A DNA stretch of 64,000 nt from assembly GCF_902170305.1 (NCBI RefSeq), contig NZ_CABHWW010000005.1, positions 62,001-126,000 on the forward strand, given 5' to 3'. How positions within the stretch are numbered: position 1 is the first letter of the stretch; each line of letters starts with the position of its first letter. Below the pieces are notes generated by a model. That model saw nothing but the letters and a program-made list of their open reading frames with translations. It made no database searches and was not told the DNA's origin. Both the position numbers and the translations under genes were made by a program. The DNA comes from Yersinia alsatica. Its GTDB lineage: Bacteria > Pseudomonadota > Gammaproteobacteria > Enterobacterales > Enterobacteriaceae. Below are positions 23,365 to 51,920 of the stretch, piece by piece.

Positions 23365-24228
23365 ATGATCCGCAGCATGACCGCCTACGCTCGGCGTGAC
23401 ATTAAGGGTGAGTGGGGTAGCGCAGCTTGGGAGCTGCGTTCCGTTAACCAACGCTACTTAGAAACTTATATTCGCTTACCTGAACAGTTCCGTAGTCTGG
23501 AGCCAGTCATCCGCGAACGCATCCGTGGCCGCTTAACCCGCGGTAAAATTGAGTGCAATCTGCGTTTTGAACTGGACGCTAACGCACAAAGTTCGTTGAT
23601 CCTGAATGAAAAACTGGCGAAACAATTAGTTGAAGCCGGTAACTGGGTCAAAATGCAAAGTGATGAAGGCGAAATCAATCCAGTCGATATTCTGCGCTGG
23701 CCGGGAGTTATGGCCGCAGAAGAACAAGATTTAGATGCCATCAGTACCGAGCTGATGCAAGCGCTGGATGTGGTGCTGGATGACTTTATTATTTCCCGCG
23801 AGACCGAAGGTGCAGCCTTGAAAGCCCTTATCGAGCAGCGTCTCGACGGTGTTAGCGCAGAAGTGGTTAAGGTTCGTGCACATATGCCAAACATTTTGCA
23901 ATGGCAACGTGAGCGGCTGCTGAGCAAGCTGGAAGAAGCACAAGTTCAGTTGGAAAATACCCGTCTGGAGCAAGAGTTAGTGCTGATGGCACAGCGTGTA
24001 GATGTGGCTGAAGAGCTGGATCGTCTGGAAGCGCATGTCAAAGAAACACACAATATTCTGAAGAAGAAAGAAGCCGTTGGCCGTCGCCTTGATTTTATGA
24101 TGCAGGAGTTCAACCGCGAGTCGAATACCCTGGCATCAAAATCTATCAACGCAGAAGTCACCAATTCAGCCATCGAGCTGAAAGTGCTTATAGAGCAAAT
24201 GCGCGAGCAGATTCAGAACATCGAGTAA
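23365..24228 (+). CDS. yicC: YicC-family endoribonuclease-like protein
   Basis: 287 residues, the family length, beginning MIRSMTAYARRD. It has the N-terminal YicC domain (GKIECNLRFELD) and the C-terminal DUF1732 (DVAEELDRLEAHV, GRRLDFMMQEFNRESNTLASKS). Members are linked to RNA decay and described as RNases; I rely on family knowledge for that. Conserved position beside divergent rph. Confidence 0.93.
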   Translation: MIRSMTAYARRDIKGEWGSAAWELRSVNQRYLETYIRLPEQFRSLEPVIRERIRGRLTRGKIECNLRFELDANAQSSLILNEKLAKQLVEAGNWVKMQSDEGEINPVDILRWPGVMAAEEQDLDAISTELMQALDVVLDDFIISRETEGAALKALIEQRLDGVSAEVVKVRAHMPNILQWQRERLLSKLEEAQVQLENTRLEQELVLMAQRVDVAEELDRLEAHVKETHNILKKKEAVGRRLDFMMQEFNRESNTLASKSINAEVTNSAIELKVLIEQMREQIQNIE

Positions 24229-24262
24229 TACCTCAAGCAATCTCTAATCGTCCTATCTAGAT

Positions 24263-24295
24263 AAAAAGCCATTATAAATAATGGCTTTTTTGTTT
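24263..24295 (+). terminator. Terminator after yicC
   Basis: 12-bp stem AAAAAGCCATTA/TAATGGCTTTTT with a 4-base loop and a T-run, 35 bases past the yicC stop. It marks the end of the conserved backbone and the left edge of the accessory block. Confidence 0.85.
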
Positions 24296-24473
24296 TAGGC
24301 GGCCCCACTTTGTATCACTAAGACGCGCTCTTTTTGTATACAGCAGTGGGCTAAGATGATTGGCACATATTCTGATCTATCTCTCGCTAAAGTATGGAAG
24401 CAGCCAAAGAGCGAGCAGAATATGCTTGATATACAACCCATTTCATTATGCTGGTTATGATTTTCTGGCCGAC

Positions 24474-24686
24474 TTATTTATACAGCTTAGCGCTCATCAT
24501 CACTTTATTACCCATACGGGCGCTGATGATTTTGTAACCTGATGCATTCATGTCTTTCGCCTTTTTAGCAATCACCGCTTCAACTGAATCCAGGGTACTG
24601 CCTGTAGCAGTCACTGTCTGTGCAGCAGCACCAAAAGCCATCAGGGAAAGAATACTGGCGGAAATAAGAGTGTTAATCGTTTTCAT
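24474..24686 (-). CDS. DUF1471 (YhcN/BhsA-type) small secreted protein
   Basis: 70 residues: signal peptide (1 to about 22, ending FGAAAQT) then a short DUF1471 domain with GSTLDSVEAVIAKKAKDM and GYKIISARMGNKVMMSAKLYK. Family members (YhcN, BhsA, McbA) are periplasmic or outer-membrane stress and biofilm proteins. The start at 24686 is set by AGGA eight bases upstream; ATG at 24692 is too close to it. It is 88 bases after the SRPBCC gene on the same strand and may be cotranscribed. Confidence 0.85.
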   Translation of the reverse strand: MKTINTLISASILSLMAFGAAAQTVTATGSTLDSVEAVIAKKAKDMNASGYKIISARMGNKVMMSAKLYK

Positions 24687-24774
24687 GTTCATAATCCTGT
24701 AGATATTATTTAATATATTCATATGGTTAGAAACGCGCTGGGAGAGTTGGCGCATTCCTATTGATTCGATACTA

Positions 24775-25191
24775 TTAAGCATCAAAGTTATTTTTCAGCG
24801 CTTCTAGGCCGCCACGATAAATGCCGGAGAACAGCGCTTCAGCTTCTGCATCACTGACGTCGACTGGCGTAAAGCTGCCGGTCCATTCCACTCGGGTAAT
24901 ATTGTTGTCGGCAGTGGTGTGAACCGAGATCGTCGACAAATAATCAACTATCGGGAACGGTGCCTGAATAATGGAGTAACTGTAGCTACGCTGACGGTTA
25001 TCAAAGGCTTCCAGACGCTCGATAACGGTGCCGCCGTCAGCGGTGGTTAGAGTGCGTACGCGGCCTCCTTCTGTAACGACACTTTTCGGGATGAACGGCA
25101 GCCAATCAGGCAGGGAGTCAAAGCCGCCCATCAGTTGCCATACCGTGTCGGCAGAAGCAGGGATTTCAATTGATACAGTCGTATTAGTCAT
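24775..25191 (-). CDS. SRPBCC-family (polyketide cyclase/START-like) protein
   Basis: 138 residues with the helix-grip hallmarks: PASADTVWQLMGGFDSLPDWLPFI at the N-terminus, IERLEAFDNRQRSYSYSII in the middle, and a long C-terminal helix ending GIYRGGLEALKNNF. Such proteins bind hydrophobic ligands; the ligand cannot be read from sequence. It lies 29 bases after the SDR gene and belongs to the same operon. Not part of the E. coli backbone. Confidence 0.85.
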   Translation of the reverse strand: MTNTTVSIEIPASADTVWQLMGGFDSLPDWLPFIPKSVVTEGGRVRTLTTADGGTVIERLEAFDNRQRSYSYSIIQAPFPIVDYLSTISVHTTADNNITRVEWTGSFTPVDVSDAEAEALFSGIYRGGLEALKNNFDA

Positions 25192-25220
25192 TTTTTTCTC
25201 TTAATTTCAGTTAGATAAAA

Positions 25221-26018
25221 TTACATTGTCAGGGTGTCAATGACACCGCCGTCGACCCGCAGAGCAGCACCTGTGGTTGCCGAAGAGAGCGGTGAAGCCA
25301 GGTAAACCACGAGGTTTGCCACTTCATCGACATCCGCTGCACGCTGGATGATGGAGCTAGGACGCGCGGTTTTGACGAACTCGTCGGCTTGTTCGCGCGG
25401 GCTGAGGCCCGATAACGCGGTGGCATCCGCCAACATCTCTTGCAGACCTTCAGTAAAGGTTGGGCCAGGTAAAATGGCATTGACTGTCACGCCGGTTCCC
25501 GCCAGGCGTTTTGCCAAGCCGTGCGACACCGCCAGATTGGCGCTTTTGGTAACACCGTAGTTGATCATGTCAGCCGGGATTGCCACACCTGATTCAGATG
25601 AGACAAAAATGATGCGTCCCCAGCCCTGTTCAACCATCCCTTTGGCATAGTGGCGCGACAGCCGTACACCAGAAAGGACGTTGACGTTATAAAAGTGCAT
25701 CCATTCCTCGTCGGGAACGCTAAAGAAGTCTTTATCGTTGAAGATACCGAGATTATTGATAACGATATCGGCCTGCGGCTCCGCGGCGCACAGAGTGGCA
25801 ACCCCTTGCTCGGTGCTAAGATCAGCAACGACGCCACGCAGCGACGCGCCCGGTAGTTTTGTGCTGATCGCAGTAATCGCACTATCAACCCCCTGTTTCT
25901 GGCGGCCGACGATAACCACGGTGGCACCGGCTTGCGCCAGTCCTTTAGCAATGCCAAGCCCGATGCCGGATGTTGAACCACTGACCACAGCGATTTTGTT
26001 GGAAAGATCTAATTTCAT
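25221..26018 (-). CDS. Short-chain dehydrogenase/reductase (SDR)
   Basis: Classical SDR of 265 residues. The cofactor motif is VSGSTSGIGLGIAKGLA near the N-terminus; the catalytic triad is serine in FVSSESG and Tyr-Lys in YGVTK; NAIL-PGPTFTEG and the C-terminal GAALRVDGGVID follow. An ATG four codons upstream (26030) is possible; neither has a clear ribosome site. It lies 43 bases downstream of the aldo/keto reductase gene. The substrate is unknown. Confidence 0.88.
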   Translation of the reverse strand: MKLDLSNKIAVVSGSTSGIGLGIAKGLAQAGATVVIVGRQKQGVDSAITAISTKLPGASLRGVVADLSTEQGVATLCAAEPQADIVINNLGIFNDKDFFSVPDEEWMHFYNVNVLSGVRLSRHYAKGMVEQGWGRIIFVSSESGVAIPADMINYGVTKSANLAVSHGLAKRLAGTGVTVNAILPGPTFTEGLQEMLADATALSGLSPREQADEFVKTARPSSIIQRAADVDEVANLVVYLASPLSSATTGAALRVDGGVIDTLTM

Positions 26019-26061
26019 ATTATTACTCATAGCTTGGAGGGGCCTTCTGACCCCGCAAAAA

Positions 26062-27072
26062 TTAACGAATCGGCAGCGGCGCGTTATCAGCAACCAAATT
26101 CTGACGGCGCATTTCATCCCAGAATTCAGCTGGAATAGAAGCTTGCAGTGCAGCCAGATCTTCTGCCATACGGCCTGGACGACTAGAGCCGGGGATAACC
26201 GCAGCAACTGCTGGGTTAGCCAGCGCGAACTGTAGTGCAGCGGCTTTCACGTCAACGTTAAAGCGGGTCGCAATCGCATTAATTTGTCCAACCTGCTGGT
26301 GAATCTGTGGAGAGGCTTTCTGATATTCGAAGTGGTCACCGCCGGCCAATACGCCAGAGCTATAAGGGCCGCCAACCACGATATCGACATTCTGTTCCAG
26401 CGCTTCTGGCATCAGGCGCTGTAAGGCACGTTTGTGATCCAGCAAGGAGTAACGGCCTGCCAGCAGGAAAGCATCTGGTTTTGGCTCGTCGAGTGCCAAT
26501 GTCAGTTCACATGGCTCAACGCGGTTAACACCCAGCCCCCAAGCCTTAATCACTCCTTCGTCACGTAGACGCGTCAGCGCACGGAAGGCACCGGTACGGG
26601 CGATGTTGAACTGCTCCAGCCAGCTATCACCATAAAAATCCTGAGCCGGGTCGTGGATCCAGACGATATCCAAATGGTCTGTTTTCAGACGCTTTAAGCT
26701 ATCTTCAATAGAACGCAGAGTGCCGTCGGCAGAGTAGTCGTTGAGAATTTTGTTTTTCAGGCCATGCTCAAATAAGCCGCCTTTTTCACCGAAATCGCGA
26801 GTGGCCGGGTCTTCCATTTCATCCAACATGATGCGGCCGACTTTGCTGCTCAAGACGAACTGATCGCGTGGATACTGAGAAAGTGCTTCACCCATCCGGC
26901 TTTCGGAAAGACCCGAACCGTACAGCGGTGCAGTATCGAAGTAGCGAACGCCCAGATCCCATGCTTCGGTGACGGTGGCGTGTGCTTCTTCTTCAGGAAT
27001 AGCGCGGAACATATTGCCCAGCGGCGCGCCGCCTAAACCAATGTTGCCTGGAAGAATATTTTTAATACTCAT
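26062..27072 (-). CDS. Aldo/keto reductase
   Basis: 336 residues, NADPH-dependent TIM-barrel oxidoreductase. Catalytic tetrad positions: Asp in RYFDTAPLYGSG with its Tyr, Lys in SSKVGR, and His in VWIHDPAQD; C-terminal cofactor segment VIPGSSRPGRMAEDLAAL. It resembles the L-fucose/D-threo-aldose and pyridoxal 4-dehydrogenase branch, but the substrate is not assigned. First gene of a minus-strand operon with SDR, SRPBCC and probably the DUF1471 gene, divergent from a LysR regulator. Confidence 0.88.
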   Translation of the reverse strand: MSIKNILPGNIGLGGAPLGNMFRAIPEEEAHATVTEAWDLGVRYFDTAPLYGSGLSESRMGEALSQYPRDQFVLSSKVGRIMLDEMEDPATRDFGEKGGLFEHGLKNKILNDYSADGTLRSIEDSLKRLKTDHLDIVWIHDPAQDFYGDSWLEQFNIARTGAFRALTRLRDEGVIKAWGLGVNRVEPCELTLALDEPKPDAFLLAGRYSLLDHKRALQRLMPEALEQNVDIVVGGPYSSGVLAGGDHFEYQKASPQIHQQVGQINAIATRFNVDVKAAALQFALANPAVAAVIPGSSRPGRMAEDLAALQASIPAEFWDEMRRQNLVADNAPLPIR

Positions 27073-27155
27073 TAAGATGTCCTCAATATTTTTTCCCGTA
27101 TCGGGAGAGTTCAGTTAGGGTGTTTTTGCTGCCTCCCTGTGACGGCGATCACAAT

Positions 27156-27218
27156 ACCTTGCAAGGTTAGGACTTGATAGGACATAATTTGTCTAACTTA
27201 AGTCCTTTGAGGTCTAAC
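27156..27218. promoter_or_regulatory. Dyad-rich operator region between aldo/keto reductase operon and lysR gene
   Basis: Holds a perfect 12-bp palindrome ACCTTGCAAGGT (27156-27167), an inverted pair AGGACTT (27169-27175) / AAGTCCT (27200-27206), and two GTCTAAC copies (27191-27197, 27212-27218). This density of dyads in a 146-bp divergent gap fits LysR-type control of both directions; no binding data are implied. Confidence 0.5.
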
Positions 27219-28106
27219 ATGATTGATTTACGCCAACTGAAATACTTCGTAGTGGTTGCCGAAGAAGAGCACGTCGGTCGCGCCGCCGAGCGCTTACATA
27301 TCTCGCAATCGCCATTGAGCCGCCAGATTGCCCAGCTTGAAGAACGTTTGGGGTTAATGCTGTTCGAGCGCAACCAACAGCGCATTCGCCTGACAGCGGA
27401 CGGGCAGACTTTTCTTGCGGAAACACGTTCATTATTGACCCACGCCAATCGTCTGGAGTCACTGGGCAAGCGCTTAGGGCGAGGGGAAGACGGGGGGTTG
27501 TGTATTGGTTATATCGAAAATGCCATGCACTCAGGTGTGCTCTCTACCGCGCTGCGTACTCTGCGCACCTCGCGCCCAGATGTGCATATTGCACTCTATA
27601 GCCAGCCACCAGCCACACAGATTGAAGGTCTGCGCCAGCGCAGTCTGGATTTCTCACTGGTAGATACAACGCCGCCGGAAGGAGAGCAGGATCTTGAGTA
27701 TATTCAGGTGCTTGATGACCGCATGCTGCTGGCACTGCCGCAAAACCACCCACTGGCGCAGGTGGAAAATATATTACCGAAGCAGTTAGCTGATCAGCAG
27801 TGGATTGCGGTGATTCACAATGATGACGCACACTCGCGCGATGATTTTGTCGCCGCCTGCGTCAGATCTGGCTTTAATCCGGACATTCGTCTGGAAGCGG
27901 GGGAACCATTGACTGCGCTTGGGCTGGTAGCGGCAGGTCTCGGACTGGCGTTAATCCAAAACAGCTTGCGCCACAATGCGCCAGAAGGCGTTGTGCTACG
28001 TGAAATCCCGTGGATGCAATATTCGACCCAGTTGTGGGCAGTGTGGCATAAAGCAAATCAACGACCGCTGGTGATGCATTTTCGCGAAATATTACGGGAG
28101 CAATAA
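27219..28106 (+). CDS. LysR-family transcriptional regulator
   Basis: 295 residues from the ATG at 27219. N-terminal winged HTH: LRQLKYFVVVAEEEHVGRAA, RLHISQSPLSRQIAQLEERLG, LFERNQQRIRLT. The effector domain (about 90-295) includes CIGYIENAMHSG and the later GLVAAGLGLALIQNSL. It is divergent from the aldo/keto reductase-SDR-SRPBCC operon, its likely target. The effector is unknown; the N-terminus resembles the BenM/CatM-like aromatic-responsive branch, only weakly suggestive. Confidence 0.9.
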   Translation: MIDLRQLKYFVVVAEEEHVGRAAERLHISQSPLSRQIAQLEERLGLMLFERNQQRIRLTADGQTFLAETRSLLTHANRLESLGKRLGRGEDGGLCIGYIENAMHSGVLSTALRTLRTSRPDVHIALYSQPPATQIEGLRQRSLDFSLVDTTPPEGEQDLEYIQVLDDRMLLALPQNHPLAQVENILPKQLADQQWIAVIHNDDAHSRDDFVAACVRSGFNPDIRLEAGEPLTALGLVAAGLGLALIQNSLRHNAPEGVVLREIPWMQYSTQLWAVWHKANQRPLVMHFREILREQ

Positions 28107-28166
28107 GTTATTTGGCTAGCTCAACATTGACGAGAGTGAATAGGCAGCGCCAATAAAAACGGGGTT

Positions 28167-28601
28167 TTATTGCTCGGATTGCGCTAAATGAATCAGTGGG
28201 AAAGGTTTCCCTTCGCCATCCAGTTCTGAACGCCCCGTTTTTATAAATCCGCAATGTAGGTAAAAAGCCAATGCAGCTGGATTTTGCTCATTCACATCGA
28301 CACTTAATTTTCCCTTTAAATGTTGAGCATGAGCCAGCAGCGCTTTACCAATTCCTTTGCCGTGATAAGCAGGATACACAAACAACATTTCTACTTTATT
28401 ACCATCAAGGCCAATGAGCCCTACCGCCTCTGCATCCTTTTCAAATAACCAAACCTCCAGTGCAGGTAAATAAATATCCCGTACTTGTGGCAAATAAAAT
28501 TGAATATCCGCCTCAGTTAAAAACAGATGCGTTTTTCTAACCGCACTTTCCCAAACTTCGATTAAACGGGAGGTGTCCGCAGGTATCGCTCGTCTTATCA
28601 T
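28167..28601 (-). CDS. GNAT-family N-acetyltransferase, YjaB-like
   Basis: 144 residues. Acetyl-CoA site in YPAYHGKGIGKALLAHA; the C-terminal VDVNEQNPAALAFYLHCGF and GRSELDGEGKPFPLIHL match the pattern of E. coli YjaB, a predicted peptidyl-lysine acetyltransferase. E. coli yjaB lies elsewhere, so this copy is in a different context. It converges on the lysR gene. Substrate unknown. Confidence 0.87.
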   Translation of the reverse strand: MIRRAIPADTSRLIEVWESAVRKTHLFLTEADIQFYLPQVRDIYLPALEVWLFEKDAEAVGLIGLDGNKVEMLFVYPAYHGKGIGKALLAHAQHLKGKLSVDVNEQNPAALAFYLHCGFIKTGRSELDGEGKPFPLIHLAQSEQ

Positions 28602-28785
28602 TCGTTTTTTACCCTCTCGTGATTGCCAGCTATAGGATAATTATCACTGACTTGTAACGCGTTAAACAAGCCCCGGCGGATATCAAACAACTGAGCACCG
28701 GCACTATTTTCTCCCTATTATCTGGAGTATGTTGAGCAAATAGAATCCATCGCCACGATTTTCCAGTAATTCTTGCGGAGTAATT

Positions 28786-29415
28786 ATGATTGCCACATCC
28801 ACTTTACTGCTGTTTTCTGGTGCTTGTGTTGCACTTGCAGCAACGCCGGGGCCAGATATGCTGCTCATCACTTCACGCAGTATTAGTCAGGGGCGCGCCT
28901 CAGGTTTTGCCTCACTAGCAGGTATCCAACTGGGAACTTATTGCCATACTTTGGCTGCCGCATTAGGGCTTTCACAACTTTTTGTGGTCGTCCCATTGGC
29001 TTATGATGCAGTGCGAATTCTCGGCGCTTGCTATTTACTTTATCTGGCATGGAAAACATTGGCATCTACTCGTCACACGGCAGCGAAAACAGCACCACAG
29101 CCAGCTTCCGCGCATAAGGCATTCCGGCAAGGGCTATTGACCAATCTATTGAATCCTAAAATGGCGCTGTTCGTATTAGCGCTATTCCCACAATTTATCA
29201 CGCCGCAATCTGGCTCAGTTATTGTGCAAATGCTGTTACTGGCAACCATCCTGAATGCAATAGGTCTAGTTATTAATGGCGGCCTGATTTTGCTAGTCAG
29301 TAATATGCGTAATCGCTTTAATACCGGAGCATTCTCAGCGCGCTGGCCTAACTATTTACTTAGCGGCGTTTTTGCCGGATTAGCCTGTAAATTACTTTTC
29401 GATAGCCGAAAATAG
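28786..29415 (+). CDS. LysE/RhtB-family amino-acid exporter
   Basis: 209 residues, about six membrane helices. Family motif near the N-terminus: ACVALAATPGPDMLLITSRSISQGRASG, followed by FRQGLLTNLLNPKMALFVLALFPQF. Likely exports an amino acid or homoserine-lactone-like compound; substrate cannot be read. ATG preceded by GCGGAG. Divergent from the GNAT gene. Confidence 0.9.
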   Translation: MIATSTLLLFSGACVALAATPGPDMLLITSRSISQGRASGFASLAGIQLGTYCHTLAAALGLSQLFVVVPLAYDAVRILGACYLLYLAWKTLASTRHTAAKTAPQPASAHKAFRQGLLTNLLNPKMALFVLALFPQFITPQSGSVIVQMLLLATILNAIGLVINGGLILLVSNMRNRFNTGAFSARWPNYLLSGVFAGLACKLLFDSRK

Positions 29416-29455
29416 TCACGATATTGGAATAACACGAGTAAACAAGGAAAAGGAT

Positions 29456-30289
29456 ATGCAGTTAACAGTACTGGTTGATAACAATACTTTGATAGATAAA
29501 TACCTTATCGCTGAGCCAGGCGTTTGTTACCACCTTCAAGTTGATGGAAAAACATTTCTTTTTGATACCGGTTATTCCGATATTTTTTTACGTAATGCAG
29601 CAATTTTGGGTATTGATATTAGCAACATTGATAGTGTGATTCTCTCTCATGGCCATAATGACCATAGCTGGGGTTTAACCCACCTTGCACAACATCTTGA
29701 CCGGATAAATCACCCTAGTACGAATAAAATAAAGCTTGTGGCCCACCCCAATGCTTTTTTACCTAAATACCATGAAGATAAATCAATAGGTGCCAATTTA
29801 CCGGCTGATAGTTACCCAACATTTTTCGAACGGGTTAATCAGTCAGGCGTCTATTACATTACCGATAATCTGCTTTTTTTAGGTGAAATTGAGCGTGGTA
29901 ACGATTTTGAAGGTCTGCATCCTATTGGGAAAACCGTCAATTGCTGCGGTCATGAGGTTGATGACTTTGTCATCGACGATAGTGCAATGGTTTATACCAG
30001 CCCAACAGGGATTGTGATTATCACTGGTTGTTCCCACTCTGGCATCTGCAATATTGTCGATTATGCTATTAAAATAACGGGTGATAAACGTGTGCGAGCG
30101 GTAATTGGTGGATTCCATCTATTAAATACAGAAACAACTATACTCGACAGAACTTCCGACTATTTCCAACGACTTAATGCTAAAGCACTATATCCTTGTC
30201 ACTGTACTGACCTCAAAGCAAAAATAGCTCTGGGCAGTACGGTTGATATAGAGGAAGTTGGTGTTGGAATGGTACTTAACTTTAAGTAA
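29456..30289 (+). CDS. Metallo-beta-lactamase-fold hydrolase
   Basis: 277 residues. Metal-binding HGHNDH is at residues 65-70 after VILS; later ligands are in ITGCSHSGICNIVDYA and IGGFHLLN. The arrangement resembles the family annotated as 7,8-dihydropterin-6-methyl-4-(beta-D-ribofuranosyl)-aminobenzene-5'-phosphate synthase, a label with little biochemical basis in enterics. It has a strong AGGAAAAGGA ribosome site and lies 40 bases after the exporter gene, so cotranscription is likely. Confidence 0.87.
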   Translation: MQLTVLVDNNTLIDKYLIAEPGVCYHLQVDGKTFLFDTGYSDIFLRNAAILGIDISNIDSVILSHGHNDHSWGLTHLAQHLDRINHPSTNKIKLVAHPNAFLPKYHEDKSIGANLPADSYPTFFERVNQSGVYYITDNLLFLGEIERGNDFEGLHPIGKTVNCCGHEVDDFVIDDSAMVYTSPTGIVIITGCSHSGICNIVDYAIKITGDKRVRAVIGGFHLLNTETTILDRTSDYFQRLNAKALYPCHCTDLKAKIALGSTVDIEEVGVGMVLNFK

Positions 30290-30435
30290 AGGCATTCGCT
30301 AATAAAAGAAAGTACAAGAAATGTCCTATTATTTCATTCCCACAGCATTAGTGAGGGTAAACGTATAGTCAGCCTTTTAAAGCTAATGCATAATCGCTGC
30401 CGGAAATTTAACGTTTAAATAAGAAGGAACTTGTA

Positions 30436-30675
30436 ATGCTTAAGAATGTACTTTTTTTTGATGCACTGCTGACACCAAAAATTCTTACCGGTTTATATTG
30501 GCTTTTACTGGTACTTATCATTATCTCTGGCGTATTTGTAATGGTACAGACTAGTATCATCGCGGGCTTTTTCAGCATCATTGGTGGTGGTCTGACTTCT
30601 CGAATTTGTTTTGAGATGATCATGATTGCCTTTAAAAACAATGAATATTTGAAAAAAATTGCCGAAAAATCCTGA
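30436..30675 (+). CDS. Small membrane protein, DUF4282 family
   Basis: 79 residues with two hydrophobic helices (about 18-39 and 42-70) separated by a few residues. The start LKNVLFFDALLTPKILTGLYW and the later GGLTSRICFEMIMIAF fit DUF4282. AAGAAGGAA precedes the ATG. Function unknown; a 146-bp gap separates it from the metallo-hydrolase gene. Confidence 0.8.
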   Translation: MLKNVLFFDALLTPKILTGLYWLLLVLIIISGVFVMVQTSIIAGFFSIIGGGLTSRICFEMIMIAFKNNEYLKKIAEKS

Positions 30676-30687
30676 TCATGATTTATC

Positions 30688-30725
30688 TTGGGTATTCTAA
30701 TATTCATTTAAAATGGAATACCCAA
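30688..30725. terminator. Hairpin after the DUF4282 gene
   Basis: Perfect 10-bp arms TTGGGTATTC and GAATACCCAA around an 18-base loop, 13 bases past the stop. The T-run is poor, so terminator function is only likely. Confidence 0.5.
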
Positions 30726-31121
30726 ATCGCTTACCACCGGTATGCTTTCATCATTAATCCGTTAAAAAAGACACTTCTCCCTCGTTACCTACATAAGTAA
30801 AAAGTTCATCTTCCTTACCACTCCACTTTTAAGACTTTGCCTAAATGAGCATAACAACATAAAAAATTAGTATTTTTTATTTTTTTCATGCTTAACTTTC
30901 ATCACAATCTGAAAGTAGGAAGAGCATTTAATATGATTATCGCTACTATCTACGATCAGGTATGAAGAAATTACACATATACTTTATTCGTTGAGAGCTC
31001 TCGATAGGGTCATGTTCTAGAGACTAGAATTACCATCATGACTGGGAAAGCTAGGGATAGGCTGTTTAAATTTCTGGCTAAGGTAACTAACAGGTACATA
31101 TACACTTTTAGAGGATCGCAT
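30726..31121. other. 396-bp leader/promoter gap upstream of rpfR with several dyads
   Basis: AT-rich with no gene seen. Contains CTTTCA-N8-TGAAAG near 30896-30915, the palindrome GAGAGCTCTC (30993-31002) and TTCTAG-AGA-CTAGAA (31015-31029). These dyads are close upstream of the PAS-GGDEF-EAL gene and could be regulator sites. An open frame from 31038 joins in phase but its residues do not match the family. Confidence 0.45.
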
Positions 31122-33116
31122 ATGTTCGAAGACCAAGACACATCGATCCTTAACACTTATTTTGGCACCCATAGCCCATTTTGGCGGCTTGCTTTTGATA
31201 GCCAGGCTTTAGAGTTGTCTGCGATTAAAGAAACACCCAATATTGCAATACCTCTGAATTCAGTTCAAACAATGAAAATTCGGAGCTTAACCGGTATTAC
31301 TGCCAGTTTAGATATTGAAATTCAAATTTATGGTCATCCCCTTCATTTACATCTTGTGGGCCGTAAAATTAATGACAAAGAGTGGGGCGGAACAGCTTCC
31401 GCGTACGCTGATACTGAATCTGTCGCCCGTGATTTAGTGATGGGCCTTTCCTTTGCAGAACAGGTAGTTTCTGAAGCTAATTCAGTTATTGTTATTCTTG
31501 ATAAAGATGGTTACGTCCAACGTTTTAATCACCTCAGCGAAGAATATACGGGTAAAAAAGAACAGGACGTCATTGGCAAAAATGTCTATGACTTGTTTAT
31601 GACCGCCAAAGAAGGAGCGTCATCACGCAAAAATATTGAGGGTTTCTTCCAGCGTGGTGCCTCTTATGAGGTTGAGCGTTGGGTTAATACCGTCAAAGGA
31701 AAGCGGCTGTTCTTATTCCGTAATAAATTTGTTCATAGTGGCAGTGGAAAAAACGAACGTTATCTTATCTGTTCCGGCACTGACATTACCAAGGAGAGGC
31801 GCGCTCAAGAGCGTCTCAGGATTCTGGCTAATACCGATATGATTACTGGATTGCCTAACCGCCACGCCATTCATGAACGTATTAATAGCGCAATCCAAAC
31901 CCGTGGTGATACCTCGGTGGGTATTATTTATCTTGATCTCGATAACTTCAAAAAAGTGAATGACCATTATGGTCATATGTTTGGTGATCGATTACTGAAA
32001 GATGTCTCGCTAGCTATATTAAGCTGCTTGGGTGAGAGCGAAATGCTGGCCCGACTTGGCGGTGATGAGTTTATTGTTTTAGTCGAAAATGCCACCATGA
32101 ACTCGCTTGAAACGACAACTCAGCGAATTCTAAACCGCATGAAATTGCCTTTCCGGGTAGGGTTGATTGAAGTATATACCGGATGCTCGATTGGAATAGC
32201 TTTATGCCCAGAGCATGGTGACACACTGGAAAATATTATTCGCAGTGCAGATACCGCCATGTACACAGCAAAAGAACACGGGAAGCAAACCTATTCGATT
32301 TTCTCACAACAGATGAATAAAAAAATCTCAGAATATGTTTGGCTAGATACCAATTTGCGCAAAGGTTTAGAACAACATCAGCTGCAAGTCTATTACCAAC
32401 CTAAAATATCCACAAAAACAGGAAAAGTGCACAGTGTCGAGGCGTTGGTTAGATGGCTATCACCGGAAAGGGGTTTAATTGCTCCGTTGGAGTTTATCTC
32501 ATATGCAGAAGAATCAGGGTTGATCAGACCACTTGGCAAATGGGTTCTACAAACGTCGATGCAACAGGCGGTCGATTGGAAAAAACGCGGGATTAACCTG
32601 CGAGTTGCAGTGAATGTTTCTGCCCGCCAGTTAATTGATGAGGCTATCGTCACCAGCTTTATTGAGTCCCTTGAAGCCAGTAACCTGGAATGCAGTCTGG
32701 TCGATGTTGAATTAACAGAAAGTTGCTTAATTGATGATGAAGATGCTGCCATCAATATCATGAAACAGTTACGGCACTTAGGTGCTCAGGTTCATTTAGA
32801 TGACTTTGGCACGGGTTATTCTTCACTTTCTCAATTAGCACGTATCCCTATTGATGCAATTAAACTAGACCAAAGTTTTGTTCGCCATATTGATAATAAT
32901 CCCATTTCACAATCTCTGGTTCGAGCCATTATTGTTGTCGCCGAGGCACTGAAAATGCGAGTGATTGCCGAAGGGGTGGAGACTCAAGAGGAAGAAGCAT
33001 TTCTCGACTCCATTGGCATTGATGAAAAACAGGGGTTTCTTTACGCCAAACCAATGCCCGCAGATGAACTGGAGCATTGGCTGGTAACACAACACCCTCA
33101 CCTTTTATTGGATTAG
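31122..33116 (+). CDS. rpfR: PAS-GGDEF-EAL c-di-GMP enzyme, RpfR/PdeR type
   Basis: 664 residues from an ATG with AGAGG upstream; it matches E. coli PdeR (YciR/Gmr) from the first residue (MFEDQDTS). Domains: N-terminal region of about 95 residues corresponding to the RpfF-interaction domain of RpfR; PAS (about 105-225); GGDEF intact at 313-317; EAL at 440-442 (EALVRW); PDE loop DDFGTGYSS at 560-568. RpfR proteins bind the fatty acid signal BDSF in the PAS domain, raising c-di-GMP hydrolysis. The convergent neighbour is an RpfF-type synthase, which is why I prefer RpfR over PdeR. Ligand response is inferred. Confidence 0.88.
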   Translation: MFEDQDTSILNTYFGTHSPFWRLAFDSQALELSAIKETPNIAIPLNSVQTMKIRSLTGITASLDIEIQIYGHPLHLHLVGRKINDKEWGGTASAYADTESVARDLVMGLSFAEQVVSEANSVIVILDKDGYVQRFNHLSEEYTGKKEQDVIGKNVYDLFMTAKEGASSRKNIEGFFQRGASYEVERWVNTVKGKRLFLFRNKFVHSGSGKNERYLICSGTDITKERRAQERLRILANTDMITGLPNRHAIHERINSAIQTRGDTSVGIIYLDLDNFKKVNDHYGHMFGDRLLKDVSLAILSCLGESEMLARLGGDEFIVLVENATMNSLETTTQRILNRMKLPFRVGLIEVYTGCSIGIALCPEHGDTLENIIRSADTAMYTAKEHGKQTYSIFSQQMNKKISEYVWLDTNLRKGLEQHQLQVYYQPKISTKTGKVHSVEALVRWLSPERGLIAPLEFISYAEESGLIRPLGKWVLQTSMQQAVDWKKRGINLRVAVNVSARQLIDEAIVTSFIESLEASNLECSLVDVELTESCLIDDEDAAINIMKQLRHLGAQVHLDDFGTGYSSLSQLARIPIDAIKLDQSFVRHIDNNPISQSLVRAIIVVAEALKMRVIAEGVETQEEEAFLDSIGIDEKQGFLYAKPMPADELEHWLVTQHPHLLLD

Positions 33117-33126
33117 GTGTACAGCA

Positions 33127-33993
33127 CTATATTGCTTTTGGCATTGCCGAAGTATGCCGGTCTTGCAACATGACTAACCGCTCGATATAAGCGATATCTT
33201 TTGGTTCAATAGAAAATGCCGAATCTACCCAGTCTTCAGTAATATCCATTAACTCAGAACGTGTTAATTGCAAAACACGCTGACGAACTCGAATCATCGC
33301 CCTCATACCATTTAGCTTAGGCCTGATCGTGTCTATAAAGGTGCGAGTTGCAAGATAAGCATCACCTGGCTGAAATAACTTATCAACTAATCCACGGCTC
33401 TCATACCATTCCGCAGCATGGGGTTCACCAGTCCAAATCAATTGTTCCGCGACCCTCATACCTGCCTTTCTGGCAACAAGTGAATACCCCCCCATACCCG
33501 GAAATAGATTAAAAGCTATCTCTGGAAAACCCATTCTGGCTGTGGTTTGCGCCAACACAAAATGATGAGCCAATGCCGCCTCAAACCCTCCACCTAAAGC
33601 ACTACCTTCAATCATCGCGATAGATATCGCCCCAGTATCAAAGCCACGCGCAGCGGCATGGACACAATCGACACACGCGCGAGCATATGCCATGAGTGCT
33701 TCGCGTTTGCGACTTTTGATCATTTGTGCAAAAAAGCTTAAATCCCCTCCCACATTAAACATATTGGGCACCACTGAGCCAGTTACCCAAAAATCGATGG
33801 GTAATTTTGACTCTTTAGCCGCCTGTACTAGCGTCATAATATTTTCAATTAACTCTAGATTAAAACAAGGGCGCGGATGAGCTCGTAGTAACATCCACAT
33901 GGTATTACGGCCTTCTTCATAATAAGCCGATATTTGAGATAAATGGCCGGCTTCAGTAAAAGGGCGGCAACTAGGCAGATTAATCATATTCAT
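33127..33993 (-). CDS. rpfF: RpfF-type DSF synthase (crotonase superfamily)
   Basis: 288 residues, close to Xanthomonas RpfF. The crotonase core carries the RpfF-specific pattern: PRPCFNLELIENI, FNVGGDLSFF (80-88), then ALGGGFEAAL with Glu138 and MGFPEIAFNLFPGMG with Glu158. The 20-residue spacing matches the two catalytic glutamates of RpfF (141 and 161 in Xanthomonas). RpfF acts as acyl-ACP dehydratase and thioesterase to release cis-2 unsaturated fatty acids. Start 33993 or 33987 (GGATGGA upstream fits both). Its stop is 10 bases from that of rpfR. Family call is strong; the acyl chain made is unknown. Confidence 0.87.
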   Translation of the reverse strand: MNMINLPSCRPFTEAGHLSQISAYYEEGRNTMWMLLRAHPRPCFNLELIENIMTLVQAAKESKLPIDFWVTGSVVPNMFNVGGDLSFFAQMIKSRKREALMAYARACVDCVHAAARGFDTGAISIAMIEGSALGGGFEAALAHHFVLAQTTARMGFPEIAFNLFPGMGGYSLVARKAGMRVAEQLIWTGEPHAAEWYESRGLVDKLFQPGDAYLATRTFIDTIRPKLNGMRAMIRVRQRVLQLTRSELMDITEDWVDSAFSIEPKDIAYIERLVMLQDRHTSAMPKAI

Positions 33994-34280
33994 ATTCCAT
34001 CCAATGAGTGAGTTGAACACAGATAGTGCTATCGCCTTATCCTCCTTGAGGAAACGCTACATTTGCCTTAATGACGGCAACTTAAGCTGGCAGATAAATA
34101 GTGAGTCACCCAATGGATAAATGACGGGGAATGCAGTAAAAATTTAAACAAGCGGGATGTTTAGGAGACAATTAAAGAATGGGTAGAATATATATGTTCA
34201 AGAAGGTTGAATTTCAGATGAAAAAAACCTGCCATTATGGATAAAATGCTGACTGAATTTTTATCCCTAACGGATTTCTT

Positions 34281-35495
34281 ATGCTACAAATTCTCCATTT
34301 TCTCTTAGCGCTGATTGCTATTGCGGTCTTGGCTTTACTCGCAAGTCATGATCGTAAAAACATCAAACTGCGCTATATTTTTCAGTTACTAATTATAGAA
34401 ATTGCCTTGGCATATTTCTTTTTACACTCAGAAAGTGGCTTGGGCGCGATAAAATACTTTGCTGGACTATTCGAATCTTTGATGAAATTTGCCGCAATAG
34501 GCACCAGTTTTGTTTTTGGTAACATGAATGAGCAAGGATTAGCATTTATATTCCTCAATGTCCTTTGCCCAATCATTTTTGTGTCCGCATTGATTGGTAT
34601 TTTACAGCATTTCCGTATCTTGCCGCTCATCATCCGGGTCGTCGGCACATTGCTATCCAAAGTAAATGGCATGGGAAAACTGGAATCTTTTAATGCCGTA
34701 AGTACCTTAATTTTAGGGCAATCAGAAAATTTCATTGCCTATAAAGGCATTATTGCTGATATATCGCCACGCAGAATGTACACCATGGCCGCCACGGCAA
34801 TGTCGACAGTATCCATGTCAATTGTAAGTGCTTACATGACCATGCTCGATCCAAAATTTGTGGTTACAGCACTCATACTGAATATGTTTAGTACTTTTAT
34901 TGTTCTTTCTATTATTAACCCATACCCAGTCACAGAAGAACCTGAATTAAAACTGAATAAGCTTCATGAAGACCAAAGTTTTTTTGAAATGCTCGGGGAA
35001 TATATTCTGGCCGGTTTTAAAATCGCCATGATTATAGCTGCCATGTTAATCGGGTTTATTGCTATCATTTCTGCTATTAATGCTTTATTTAGCACTTTAT
35101 TCAATATCAGTTTCCAAGGCGTGCTGGGATATCTATTTTATCCACTCGCACTACTGATTGGCATCCCAGCTCAAGATGCTTTACAGGCTGGCAGTATTAT
35201 GGCGACCAAATTAGTAGCAAATGAGTTCGTAGCCATGATTGAGCTGAAAAAGGTTGCAGCCGAAATGTCACCGCGTGGTTTGGGTATTCTCTCGGTCTTT
35301 TTAGTCTCTTTTGCTAACTTCGCCTCAATTGGCATTGTTGCTGGTGCCATTAAAGGGTTGAATGAGCAGCAAGGCAATGTGGTCTCACGATTTGGATTAA
35401 AGCTAGTGTATGGTTCATACTTTGGTCAGTTTACTTTCTGCCGCGATTGCCGGCCTTGTCTTGTGAGCCAAACTTACTCTAGCCGTACAGAATAA
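34281..35495 (+). CDS. Nucleoside transporter, NupC/CNT family, frameshifted near the C-terminus
   Basis: Concentrative nucleoside permease with many membrane helices. Family motifs: [58 protein letters not shown] and [20 protein letters not shown]. After KLVYGS (about 35417) the frame reads [10 protein letters not shown] and a foreign tail to 35495. Dropping one base near 35417 restores [15 protein letters not shown] with a TGA stop at 35464-35466, the normal family ending (394 residues). So there is a +1 (or -2) slip in nature or in the assembly. Only the last helix is changed; activity is uncertain. Close to E. coli PsuT/NupC. Confidence 0.88.
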
Positions 35496-35504
35496 ATAAT
35501 AAGT

Positions 35505-35543
35505 CGGCCTTTTACCTCTCGTTATTTCGAAGGTAGAAGGCCG
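35505..35543. terminator. Bidirectional hairpin between the nucleoside transporter and DUF3574 genes
   Basis: Arms CGGCCTTTTACCT and AGGTAGAAGGCCG pair over 13 positions with one wobble. It sits in a convergent gap. Confidence 0.6.
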
Positions 35544-35566
35544 GAATTCAGACTCAAAATTTACGC

Positions 35567-36031
35567 TTAGAAATCAACGCAGACAGCCGCATCAACTCGC
35601 ATAACGGATTCTTGCGCAAACTGCTGTTTATAACGGGAACGCAGAGTTTCAATCGCATTTTCTTTGTCATCGTTATGAATAAGCACCAACGCCCTGCTGC
35701 TTTCTTTGGCGACCTTGCCATCATTCCCCAACCATTGCCCTTTAGCCTCAATAACTGTCAGACCATCTTTAAAACGGCTGGTGACATCATTATCGACGAA
35801 AGACTGCCATTCAGTCGATGAAATGGCGGGGCCATGAGGGCGGTTCAAGCCAAAATAGAGTGTCGTTTGTGTCATTGGTTCACCTTTAACACAAACCGGA
35901 GCTACAACCTTCACCACTGATTTATTTGCATGGCTAGTGCTATCAATACAACCCGTTAGTAATGCTCCAACGGTAACCACACTCGCTAAAAGTACAGCCC
36001 GATATTGGAACGGATTAACCCACTTATCCAT
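35567..36031 (-). CDS. DUF3574 lipoprotein
   Basis: 154 residues starting at the ATG at 36031, with GGGA upstream; a TTG two codons earlier is also open. N-terminal signal with lipobox LLTGC (Cys near residue 28), then the DUF3574 core: TTLYFGLNRPHGPAISSTEW, FVDNDVTSRFKDGLTV, ALVLIHND and SVMRVDAAVCVDF. Role unknown; probably periplasm-facing. Right-most gene of the accessory block. Confidence 0.85.
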   Translation of the reverse strand: MDKWVNPFQYRAVLLASVVTVGALLTGCIDSTSHANKSVVKVVAPVCVKGEPMTQTTLYFGLNRPHGPAISSTEWQSFVDNDVTSRFKDGLTVIEAKGQWLGNDGKVAKESSRALVLIHNDDKENAIETLRSRYKQQFAQESVMRVDAAVCVDF

Positions 36032-36037
36032 GAACAA

Positions 36038-36348
36038 ATCCCACTGAAATAAAAGATAAAATAGAAATAAAAGCTATCATCCGACGAATAACTCTGCAAT
36101 AAGACGAGATAATCATAAAAGCGCTCAATAGTGTTACCACCCCTCTTCAATAGAGTGGTTTTTCACCTAGAATTATTAATGAATAATTATCACATCATTC
36201 ATTTTTTATGAATATATATTAATAAGATAGCTAATATTTTGATTAGATTAAGTAATCCTAAATGCATGGCTTAGAAAATCTCAGTCGCATCGTTATCTCT
36301 TAGTGACTACTCTGCGGCCTTTGCAGCCACTAAGAAATTTAATTCATT
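36038..36348. other. 311-bp AT-rich divergent gap
   Basis: Between the DUF3574 gene and yicG, with no gene recognised. Strongly AT-rich stretches (36165-36240), presumably promoters in both directions. It marks the right junction of the accessory block with the backbone. Confidence 0.5.
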
Positions 36349-36966
36349 ATGCTACTCAGTGTTCTTTATATTATTGGTATCACAGCTGAAGCCATGACCG
36401 GAGCACTGGCTGCGGGCCGCCGTCAAATGGATATGTTTGGCGTCATTATTATTGCCTCTGCAACCGCCATTGGCGGGGGTTCGGTCAGAGACATGCTACT
36501 AGGCCATTATCCACTTGGCTGGGTTAAACATCCGGAATACATTGTCATTGTCGCCATTGCCGCGATAGTCACAACTTGGATGGCGCCATTAATGAAGCAT
36601 TTGCGGCATTTATTTCTAGTGCTTGATGCTATTGGCCTTATTGTTTTTTCCATTATTGGTGCACAAATTGCTCTCGACATGGGCCACAGTACGATCATTG
36701 CGGCGATTGCAGCCGTGATTACCGGTGTCTTTGGTGGTGTTCTGCGCGATATGTTCTGTAACTGTATCCCGTTAGTATTTCAGAAAGAAATCTATGCCGG
36801 TATCTCATTTGCCGCCGCTTGGATCTATATTGCTCTGCAATACACTCCGCTGTCTCATAACTGGGTTGTTATCATTACACTCGTCACAGGGCTGAGCGCA
36901 CGATTACTGGCATTGAGATTCCGTCTTGGTCTGCCAGTATTCAAATATGAGCACTCTGAGCATTAA
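36349..36966 (+). CDS. yicG: TRIC/UPF0126-family membrane protein YicG
   Basis: 205 residues, about seven membrane helices in two repeated halves, each with the signature glycine motif: [13 protein letters not shown] (about 43-55) and [13 protein letters not shown] (about 128-140). Bacterial relatives of trimeric intracellular cation channels; the transported ion is unproven. It is followed by convergent ligB, the E. coli order. Confidence 0.92.
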
Positions 36967-49790: not shown

Positions 49791-50477
49791 CTACATAAGT
49801 GGAAAAGACCCTGAGTATTCAAAGAAGCTTTGAGGAACATAGTTATCGATTTTGTTTTCATAGCAATACTCTACGGCTTGCCGCCTGTTCGTCACGCCAG
49901 CTTTACTGTAGATCTTTTGGATAACATTGTTCACAGTCCCCAATGATAATTGGAGCCTTTTAGCAATCTCACCGCTTGAAAATGCATGCAAAATATAAAA
50001 AAGCACCTCCCACTCTCTTTTGGTAAATAAATCAGATGGTGGAGTAAACATGAGGGATGTGGGAACTTTTATTTTATTTAAACGAGATAATATTGTCTCT
50101 GTCACAGGGCTACCATGCCAAATAACGCCTTGACATACACCGTTTTCATCTATTAATGGAAATTTATCACAGAAATAAGGTGTGAAATATGAAACTCCAT
50201 CATATAACTGTATATCAACGGATGTGACGCGATCTTGCAGTAACACTACTTTACTATCTTGCCTCTGAAATTCCTCCTGAAATTCAGCCGCAGGTGTGGG
50301 GACTTCACCATCGAGTCTCCCCTCTAAATTATATTTATCTGATAAATTAAATAATTTATTCACTCGGAGATTCGCATAAACAAATCTTGATTGACGATCT
50401 TTTACAGCCCAAGGCTCTGAACTACGCTCCCAAAATGGTATTAATAATCTTAGTGATTTGAATAGTGTTTTATCCAT
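49791..50477 (-). CDS. PAS-LuxR transcriptional regulator, paralogue 1
   Basis: 228 residues from the ATG at 50477 (GAGG eight bases upstream; an ATG two codons earlier is too close to it). N-terminal PAS-like fold (about 10-140) opening ERSSEPWAVKDRQSRFVYAN, the hinge IKVPTSLMFTPPSDLFTKREWEVLFYILHAF, then a LuxR HTH (GEIAKRLQLSLGTVNNVIQKIY). The C-terminus ends FFEYSGSFPLM, shared with the two neighbours. Third and last of a tandem set; the most diverged at the 3' end. Ligand and targets unknown. Confidence 0.85.
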   Translation of the reverse strand: MDKTLFKSLRLLIPFWERSSEPWAVKDRQSRFVYANLRVNKLFNLSDKYNLEGRLDGEVPTPAAEFQEEFQRQDSKVVLLQDRVTSVDIQLYDGVSYFTPYFCDKFPLIDENGVCQGVIWHGSPVTETILSRLNKIKVPTSLMFTPPSDLFTKREWEVLFYILHAFSSGEIAKRLQLSLGTVNNVIQKIYSKAGVTNRRQAVEYCYENKIDNYVPQSFFEYSGSFPLM

Positions 50478-50511
50478 CACCATTTCCTCTTTATTTTAAT
50501 TAATCCTTATC

Positions 50512-51198
50512 TTACATCAGTGGAAAAGACCCAGAATAGTCAAAGAAACTCTGTGGTACATAATTATGGATCTTGTTTTCATAGCAATATTCTATAACCT
50601 GTTTTTTGCTGGTAACACCAGATTTTCTATATATATTCTGGATGACATTATTCACCGTTCGTCGTGATAGATGAAGTTTTTCAGCAATTTCATTACTTGA
50701 AAATGCATGTAAAATATAAAATAGTATCTCCCACTCTCTTTTGGTGAACAAATCAGATGGTGGGGTGAAAATCAGTGATGTTGGCACTTTTATTTTATTC
50801 AAATGCGTCAATATTATATCGTCTACTGGTCTAACATGAAAAATCGTACCTTGAGATATACCCTCTTCATCTATTAATGGATATTTGTCACAAAAGTTGG
50901 GTTTAAAATATGAAAGGCCGTCCCACTCATGTATCTCAACGGATGTGATACGATCCTGTAATAATTCAACTTTACGGTCGTGTTCCTGAAACTCCACCTC
51001 AAATTCAGATATTGGTGTAGGAAGCTCACCATCTGAGCGTCCCTCGACATTATATTTATCAGGCAAGTCTAGCAGTTTATTGAATCTATTATTAGCATAG
51101 ATAAACTTTGATTTATTATCTTTTATCCCCCAAGGTTCAGAGCTATGCTCCCAAAATCGTATTAATACATCAAATGAATCTATAGTTATTTTTCCCAT
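50512..51198 (-). CDS. PAS-LuxR transcriptional regulator, paralogue 2
   Basis: 228 residues in register with its neighbours (an ATG one codon upstream is possible). Same plan: PAS opening EHSSEPWGIKDNKSKFIYAN, hinge KIKVPTSLIFTPPSDLFTK, HTH NEIAEKLHLSRRTVNNVIQ, and the terminal FFDYSGSFPLM. Its last 51 bases, stop included, are identical to those of paralogue 3. Middle gene of the island. DNA target unknown. Confidence 0.85.
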   Translation of the reverse strand: MGKITIDSFDVLIRFWEHSSEPWGIKDNKSKFIYANNRFNKLLDLPDKYNVEGRSDGELPTPISEFEVEFQEHDRKVELLQDRITSVEIHEWDGLSYFKPNFCDKYPLIDEEGISQGTIFHVRPVDDIILTHLNKIKVPTSLIFTPPSDLFTKREWEILFYILHAFSSNEIAEKLHLSRRTVNNVIQNIYRKSGVTSKKQVIEYCYENKIHNYVPQSFFDYSGSFPLM

Positions 51199-51233
51199 CA
51201 TGACGTCCCTTTAAAGTTTACTATTCTTTACGA

Positions 51234-51920
51234 TTACATCAGTGGAAAAGACCCAGAATAGTCAAAGAAACTCTGTGGTACATAGTTATTAATTTTTTTC
51301 TCATAACAATATTCCACGATCTGGCGTTTACTGGTAACTCCAGCTTTACTATATATTTTTTGAGTAATATTACAGACAGTTCGTGATGAAAGATGAAGTT
51401 TCTTAGCAATCTCACTACTTGAGAATGAATGCAAAATATAAAATAGTACTTCCCACTCCCTTTTAGAAAATGACTCAGATGGCGGAGTGAATATCAATGA
51501 TGTTGGCACTTTTATTTTATTTAAATGGGTTAATATTATATCTTGCACTGGTCTGGCATGAAAAATAAGCCCTTGTGCTACGCCATCTTCATCTATTAAT
51601 GGGTATTTATCGCAAAAGTAAGGTTGAAAATAAGAACGTCGTTCAAAGGCATGTATTTCAACCGTTGTGGCTCGCTCTTGTGACAGTATCGCCTGCCGAT
51701 CATGTTCTTGAAACTCAGCCTGAAACTCCGCGGTAGGAGCCGGAAGTTCCCCATCGAATCGCCCTTCTACATTATATTTATCCGGCAAACCTAGTAACTC
51801 ACCAAATCTATCGTTTGCGTAGATAAATATTGATTTGTTATCTTTTACCCCCCAAGCTTCGGAGCTATTTTCCCAAAAGGGGATTAACATTTTAAATGAG
51901 TCTAACAGTGGTTTTTCCAT
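51234..51920 (-). CDS. PAS-LuxR transcriptional regulator, paralogue 3
   Basis: 228 residues with GGAGGG seven bases before the ATG, the best ribosome site of the three. PAS part opens ENSSEAWGVKDNKSIFIYAN; HTH reads SEIAKKLHLSSRTVCNITQKIY, where the recognition helix differs from its neighbours (CNIT instead of NNVI). The C-terminus is FFDYSGSFPLM. It follows the Ner-like gene by 18 bases, so the four genes probably form one transcript. Confidence 0.85.
   Translation of the reverse strand: MEKPLLDSFKMLIPFWENSSEAWGVKDNKSIFIYANDRFGELLGLPDKYNVEGRFDGELPAPTAEFQAEFQEHDRQAILSQERATTVEIHAFERRSYFQPYFCDKYPLIDEDGVAQGLIFHARPVQDIILTHLNKIKVPTSLIFTPPSESFSKREWEVLFYILHSFSSSEIAKKLHLSSRTVCNITQKIYSKAGVTSKRQIVEYCYEKKINNYVPQSFFDYSGSFPLM

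Follow-up and report, generated by a model that had tools for sequence, protein, structure and literature searches.

A predicted RpfF/RpfR signaling module in Yersinia alsatica and signal-pocket changes in related receptors that lack a synthase

The 64,000-nucleotide stretch of Yersinia alsatica DNA analyzed here (contig NZ_CABHWW010000005.1, positions 62,001 to 126,000; hereafter the window) carries two adjacent, convergent genes, rpfR and rpfF, which, as judged from their sequences, very probably form a complete RpfF/RpfR signaling module of the Burkholderia diffusible signal factor (BDSF) type. Gene identity, intact domains, catalytic and ligand-contact residues, convergence, co-occurrence, and phylogenetic placement were computed directly, and the enzymatic reaction, the ligand identity, the inhibition by the RpfF-interaction (FI) domain, and the cyclic di-GMP (c-di-GMP) output are carried over from homologues with published experiments. 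The features of the module are listed below.

31122..33116, + strand: rpfR (pdeR-type), 664 amino acids (aa); FI-PAS-GGDEF-EAL c-di-GMP phosphodiesterase, predicted BDSF receptor
31122..31406, + strand: FI domain, residues 1-95; residues 2-94 align with 6dga, the solved N-terminal domain of RpfR (phmmer E 9.9e-20)
31461..31790, + strand: PAS domain, residues 114-223; matches RpfR 6dgg (phmmer E 2.9e-49); predicted contacts S168, N171, Y182, R186, and N201
31827..32288, + strand: GGDEF domain, residues 236-389 (Pfam E 1e-44); motif intact, starting at residue 313
32352..33053, + strand: EAL domain, residues 411-644 (Pfam E 1.9e-68); EAL motif starting at residue 440
33117..33126, no strand: gap of 10 nt between the stop codons of rpfR and rpfF
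33127..33993, - strand: rpfF, 288 aa; crotonase-fold diffusible signal factor (DSF) synthase of the Burkholderia/Enterobacterales type, by phmmer, tree, and PRK08788

By the sequence features tested, the predicted receptor is an RpfR. The protein scores 1173 bits with the NCBIfam model PRK10060 (cyclic di-GMP phosphodiesterase), whose cut-off is 782, the RpfR chains 6dga and 6dgg are among its PDB matches in phmmer, and the Pfam PAS matches start at residue 114 or 123. A previous sequence-only reading had described an RpfR-like receptor facing an RpfF-like synthase, the former a 664-residue PAS-GGDEF-EAL protein with 95 residues ahead of the PAS domain as in RpfR and with intact GGDEF and EAL motifs; the reading frames, Pfam, and the 6dga match agree with this description, both motifs are present, and the interpretation is supported by the crotonase tree and the receptor features. 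The EAL domain contains the motifs EAL, ELTES, DDFGTGYSS, KLDQSF, and EGVET, the motif set expected of such a domain, and no RxxD inhibitory site precedes the GGDEF motif of the window RpfR. The FI domain has rpfR as its sole match in the whole genome (5.0 Mb, E<=0.1), in which 11 EAL matches were found. In Cronobacter turicensis RpfR, the fatty acid is contacted by S169, N172, Y183, R187, and N202 (Waldron et al. 2019, PMC6361424), and in Burkholderia cenocepacia the four contacts mutated were S168, N171, R186, and N201 (PMC6361424). All five residues (S, N, Y, R, and N) are found in the window RpfR at the positions listed above.

Analysis of the synthase placed it among the RpfF proteins. 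The window RpfF scores 409 bits with PRK08788 (cut-off 177) and matches the Pfam families ECH_1 and ECH_2. Its best solved relatives are 6dgn (named RpfF, E 1.2e-133) and 5fus (4.2e-133), with the match covering residues 4-284, followed by 3m6m (RpfF, 3.8e-44; presumably from Xanthomonas) and 7zq7 (6.7e-44, annotated simply as a crotonase/enoyl-CoA hydratase family protein), and the first PDB chain below the RpfF-like ones stands at 4.1e-16. The structure 5fus is the RpfF of B. cenocepacia (PMC6361424). In a tree of 60 crotonases, including ten of the hydratase/FadB type (the hydratase locus L320 gave no hit and was dropped), the window crotonase lies inside an RpfF clade of Enterobacterales and Burkholderiales, beside another RpfF-like group, and the RpfF groups are split from the ten hydratase/FadB-type sequences with a support of 0.996. 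The tree, which the sequence-only reading had proposed as a check, therefore groups the crotonase with RpfF and not with the hydratases. An ordinary enoyl-CoA hydratase that stands by chance beside a PdeR-type phosphodiesterase would also be a crotonase with ECH_1 and ECH_2 matches, and NCBIfam gives the close group no name beyond crotonase/enoyl-CoA hydratase family protein; however, the split from FadB-type and other hydratases, together with the fall from RpfF structures at E~1e-133 to the first chain that is not RpfF-like, makes such a coincidence extremely improbable. Whether the gene had passed horizontally between Burkholderia and Enterobacterales was also considered; in the RpfF tree Yersinia groups with Serratia, with Paraburkholderia apart, and the tree thus gives no sign of a recent acquisition by Yersinia.

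The distribution of the two genes points the same way. In a sample of 343 genomes of the family, searched with RpfF at E<=1e-40 and with the FI domain at E<=1e-5, RpfF was found in 84 genomes and the FI domain in 121; all 84 RpfF genomes also have an FI-bearing receptor, which argues against a hydratase placed by chance, and 37 genomes are receptor-only and none synthase-only. Among the named loci, namely the best 80 of 324 encoding an RpfF relative and all fetched through RpfF, the receptor is convergent with and adjacent to the synthase in every case (80/80), with a full-length receptor frame in 77. Adjacency is not universal, as 5 of 15 pairs picked for their spacing lie 1.4-6.3 kb apart. 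Across the order, sampled evenly with 197 genomes, six RpfF-type matches of 36-37% identity came without an FI domain, all of which fall in the other RpfF-like group of the crotonase tree. In Pantoea dispersa (L111), rpfF is whole and the rpfR frame matches only from residue 140 of the window protein, which would mean that the FI domain is damaged or that the sequence contains an error. In one family genome (G469), RpfF-type genes occur twice, about 280 kb apart and with 69% and 65% identity to the window RpfF.

Within Yersinia, rpfF is uninterrupted in 22 of 25 species genomes and split in one (G005), and no match was found in two (G006 and G013), neither absence being proven, with the flanks in G006 lying near contig ends and the sequence of G013 being covered in part. 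Matches to rpfR were found in 23 of the 25, with a split copy in G011 and a stop-interrupted one in G022, and both genes are uninterrupted in 20. The receptor gene is also split in the named locus of Y. massiliensis (L049) and stop-interrupted in that of Y. pekkanenii (L047). Among the matches listed, which may leave aside the genome of the window itself, the closest named RpfF proteins are those of Yersinia frederiksenii ATCC 33641 and Y. aleksiciae, both at 98%, and the best named RpfR match is that of Y. frederiksenii (L039).

Several observations weigh against a working RpfF/RpfR module. The sequence-only reading had relied on Glu138 and Glu158 at the spacing of the RpfF catalytic glutamates; both crotonase-site glutamates are present in the window RpfF, but in the tree alignment the ordinary hydratase/FadB-type sequences also have Glu138 (10/10) and Glu158 (9/10), so the pair was rejected as an RpfF diagnostic. 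The window RpfF does not pass the NCBIfam RpfF equivalog model NF053515, scoring 185.6 bits against a cut-off of 550. All five other members of its group that were scored fail likewise with 177-189 bits (from Burkholderia, Paraburkholderia, Achromobacter, Serratia, and Pantoea), suggesting that NF053515 fits another RpfF group; the cut-off was for this reason discarded as a criterion for the group of the window RpfF, and none of the 229 class genomes searched reaches it either. None of the five members scored is known to be an assayed protein. In addition, the broken rpfF or rpfR copies in G005, G011, and G022 indicate that members of the genus can do without the circuit.

By analogy with characterized systems, RpfF would dehydrate 3-hydroxyacyl-acyl carrier protein (ACP) to cis-2-enoyl-ACP and would then release a cis-2 fatty acid in free form, with cis-2-dodecenoic acid as the likeliest product. 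This acid would bind the PAS domain of RpfR and raise the phosphodiesterase activity of the EAL domain, lowering c-di-GMP and thereby controlling biofilm-related signaling, and the FI domain would bind RpfF and restrain signal synthesis. Published work on B. cenocepacia and C. turicensis describes this division of labor: the cis-2 acid is a product of RpfF, RpfR is the protein that takes it up as ligand and breaks down c-di-GMP, and RpfF is kept in check by the FI domain (PMC6361424; PMC4698668). The chain length is not readable from sequence, and the signal could be a cis-2 acid other than cis-2-dodecenoic acid; we consider this unlikely, given that the predicted PAS contacts equal those of BDSF receptors and that the RpfF tunnel residues Phe44 and Phe88 are present, although several ordinary hydratases also have both.

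Comparison with receptors that stand without a synthase suggested what becomes of the module when rpfF is missing. We lean towards the view that the synthase was lost repeatedly, about ten times around Escherichia coli if it was never regained, and that the signal pocket and the FI domain of the receptor then decayed, so that the E. coli-type PdeR would have begun as a fatty-acid receptor and would now respond to another input, with Yersinia keeping a working circuit elsewhere in its genome. Regions were fetched for 35 of the 37 receptor-only genomes; G408 and G273 (both cut short), L248, L249, and L250 (all three with no full-length frame), and one duplicate were left out, as was the Yersinia genome with the split rpfF (G005/L123), whose receptor still has all five contacts. 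The resulting 32 orphan rows (31 genomes and E. coli K-12) were compared with 113 paired rows, consisting of 103 paired and 10 outgroup rows; seven of the 103 are second copies of the same protein, and 48 further paired regions had been taken, among which L299 is incomplete. At least one of the five contact residues is changed in 19 of the 32 orphans and in none of the 113 paired rows, indicating that receptors with a synthase beside them preserve the predicted pocket, whose upkeep thus tracks the synthase. The changes are S168A, N171Y/H/K, R186L, or Y182W (window numbering) and occur in eight of ten orphan clades, with R186L in the PdeR of E. coli K-12. The difference persists after clustering at 97% (19/29 orphans versus 0/83 paired, outgroup included). 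Five other invariant PAS columns drawn at random are changed in a mean of 3.9 orphans, a count of 19 never being reached in 5000 draws, and five random invariant columns of GGDEF plus EAL in a mean of 1.2. Against pocket decay stand three findings: N201, the contact associated with the cis-2 bond, is kept in all 32 orphans; 13 of the 32 keep all five contacts, with Y182 changed in one only; and N120, an invariant PAS column outside the five named contacts, is changed in 9.

The FI domain shows a similar pattern, since many of the 32 orphans have changed a patch (D26, S27, A29, and G71) that all or nearly all paired receptors keep. Three of these columns are invariant in the paired rows and changed in orphans (A29 in 28/32, S27 in 16/32, and D26 in 13/32), and G71 is 99% conserved in pairs and kept by 25% of orphans. 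The published RpfF-FI interface includes the beta2-beta3 and beta4-beta5 loops (PMC6361424), and G71 probably lies in the latter. A first divergence comparison was confounded by phylogeny and set aside, and branch lengths were taken instead on a fixed tree (FastTree topology), with a GGDEF+EAL tree for the orphan clades. Relative to EAL, orphan branches are 1.42 times faster in the FI domain (above 1 in 24/25 bootstraps), 1.6 times faster in PAS (25/25), and 1.11 times faster in GGDEF (20/25), which agrees modestly with receptor decay in orphans and shows that the FI domain is not alone, the PAS domain changing at least as much. The 32 orphans fall into about ten clades of the GGDEF+EAL tree; as several deep nodes are weakly supported and regain is assumed absent, the number of rpfF losses is approximate.

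These rates also bear on the possibility that the receptor acts mainly through protein contacts, as a trigger enzyme, a role that has been proposed for YciR in E. coli and for RpfR together with BerB, the fatty acid being a minor input. Interactions of RpfR with BerB and of YciR with YdaM have been described (PMC9684580), and the GGDEF and EAL motifs of the window RpfR are both intact. Where RpfF is kept, however, the FI and PAS domains evolve more slowly relative to EAL and the contact residues are unchanged, which points to the ligand and the synthase as real inputs; a predominantly contact-driven receptor thus has, in our estimate, a rather small chance of being correct, and the two modes of input are not mutually exclusive.

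The genomic position of the E. coli receptor bears on the history of the pair. In E. coli K-12, pdeR sits between rnb and yciZ/yciT with no synthase beside it, in line with the claim of the sequence-only reading that E. coli keeps the receptor homologue PdeR without the synthase. Nine named loci of the Pantoea/Erwinia type (one labelled Enterobacter) hold the whole pair between rnb and yciH/pyrF, and five further genomes with the pair have rnb or yciT no more than 1.5 kb away from it, a distance within which the other genomes show neither gene. The E. coli pdeR thus stands where Pantoea-type genomes hold the whole pair, which favors the view that the E. coli lineage lost rpfF. In two receptor-only genomes (G257 and G254; loci L248 and L249), fragmentary FI or EAL matches lie beside a yciT-like gene and may be relics of a receptor gene at the locus that pdeR occupies in E. 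coli. In PMC6361424, C12:0 as a regulator of E. coli PdeR is put forward as speculation only.

The module stands in an interval with the following flanking genes, whose names are provisional.

23365-24228: gene that we take to be yicC, one flank of the block
36349-36966: gene that we take to be yicG, the other flank; the Pfam match Gly_transporter agrees

The names of the nupC-like and other neighbour genes are likewise provisional, and Pfam matches of the window neighbours are Nucleos_tra2, DUF3574, Gly_transporter, and DNA_ligase. The interval (24229-36348) is variable across Yersinia species, with SDR, aldo-keto reductase, LysR, GNAT, LysE, MBL, nupC-like, and DUF3574 genes differing between them. 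Among 11 named Yersinia loci, fetched through rpfF and spanning only 6 kb from it, nupC-like and DUF3574 genes occur in nine, and LysE, GNAT, and MBL genes in fewer. The accessory block that the sequence-only reading had placed between yicC and yicG therefore holds as far as the content varies between species, but not for the pair itself, as rpfF and rpfR are each present, whole or in pieces, in 23 of the 25 species genomes. The nupC-like nucleoside transporter beside rpfF (34281-35495, + strand) has 404 residues, of which most relatives match none beyond residue 379, giving it an unusual-looking C terminus; L045, L046, and L024 align to the C-terminal end with gaps. Elsewhere in the window (49791-51920, - strand), three similar tandem frames of 228-230 aa have the look of LuxR-type regulators by eye, no family search having been made.

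Compared with the Cronobacter and Burkholderia systems, the predicted Yersinia system lies at a different genome place, between yicC and yicG. E. coli PdeR (YciR, Gmr) has a homologous FI-PAS-GGDEF-EAL architecture and is 65% identical to the window RpfR in EAL (residues 411-600) and 68% in PAS, but its FI domain is only 38% identical, below a Paraburkholderia FI at 49.5%; it also differs in having no adjoining synthase and in one contact (R186L). The Xanthomonas RpfF/RpfC/RpfG system has a synthase homologous to the window RpfF (3m6m). Unlike the RpfR of the window, the receptor of that system is a hybrid kinase, and an HD-GYP regulator is a separate component (PMC4504480). The RpfF/RpfR systems of C. 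turicensis (PMC4698668) and B. cenocepacia (PMC6361424) are like the window in the two proteins, the domain order, and the ligand-contact residues, and in Burkholderia species rpfF and rpfR are convergent, as here (PMC4504480).

The pair is of a kind already described, Yersinia included: a review of 2015 and a study of 2016 (the papers PMC4698668 and PMC4504480) list the genus among those that carry RpfF/RpfR, so that the system was already known, and the genus is also named as an RpfF carrier in PMC12838280, with Y. enterocolitica named for RpfR in PMC6361424. Among the papers listed in a search of open-access literature, titles and starts of abstracts showed no experimental RpfF/RpfR study in Yersinia and no work on pocket loss in orphan PdeR, which does not show that none exists. 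By analogy with its relatives, the module would link a diffusible fatty acid to c-di-GMP, and its wide presence in Yersinia, with both genes uninterrupted in 20 of the 25 species genomes, makes it easy to test, while the pattern of changes in orphan receptors offers a direct test of what E. coli PdeR senses today.
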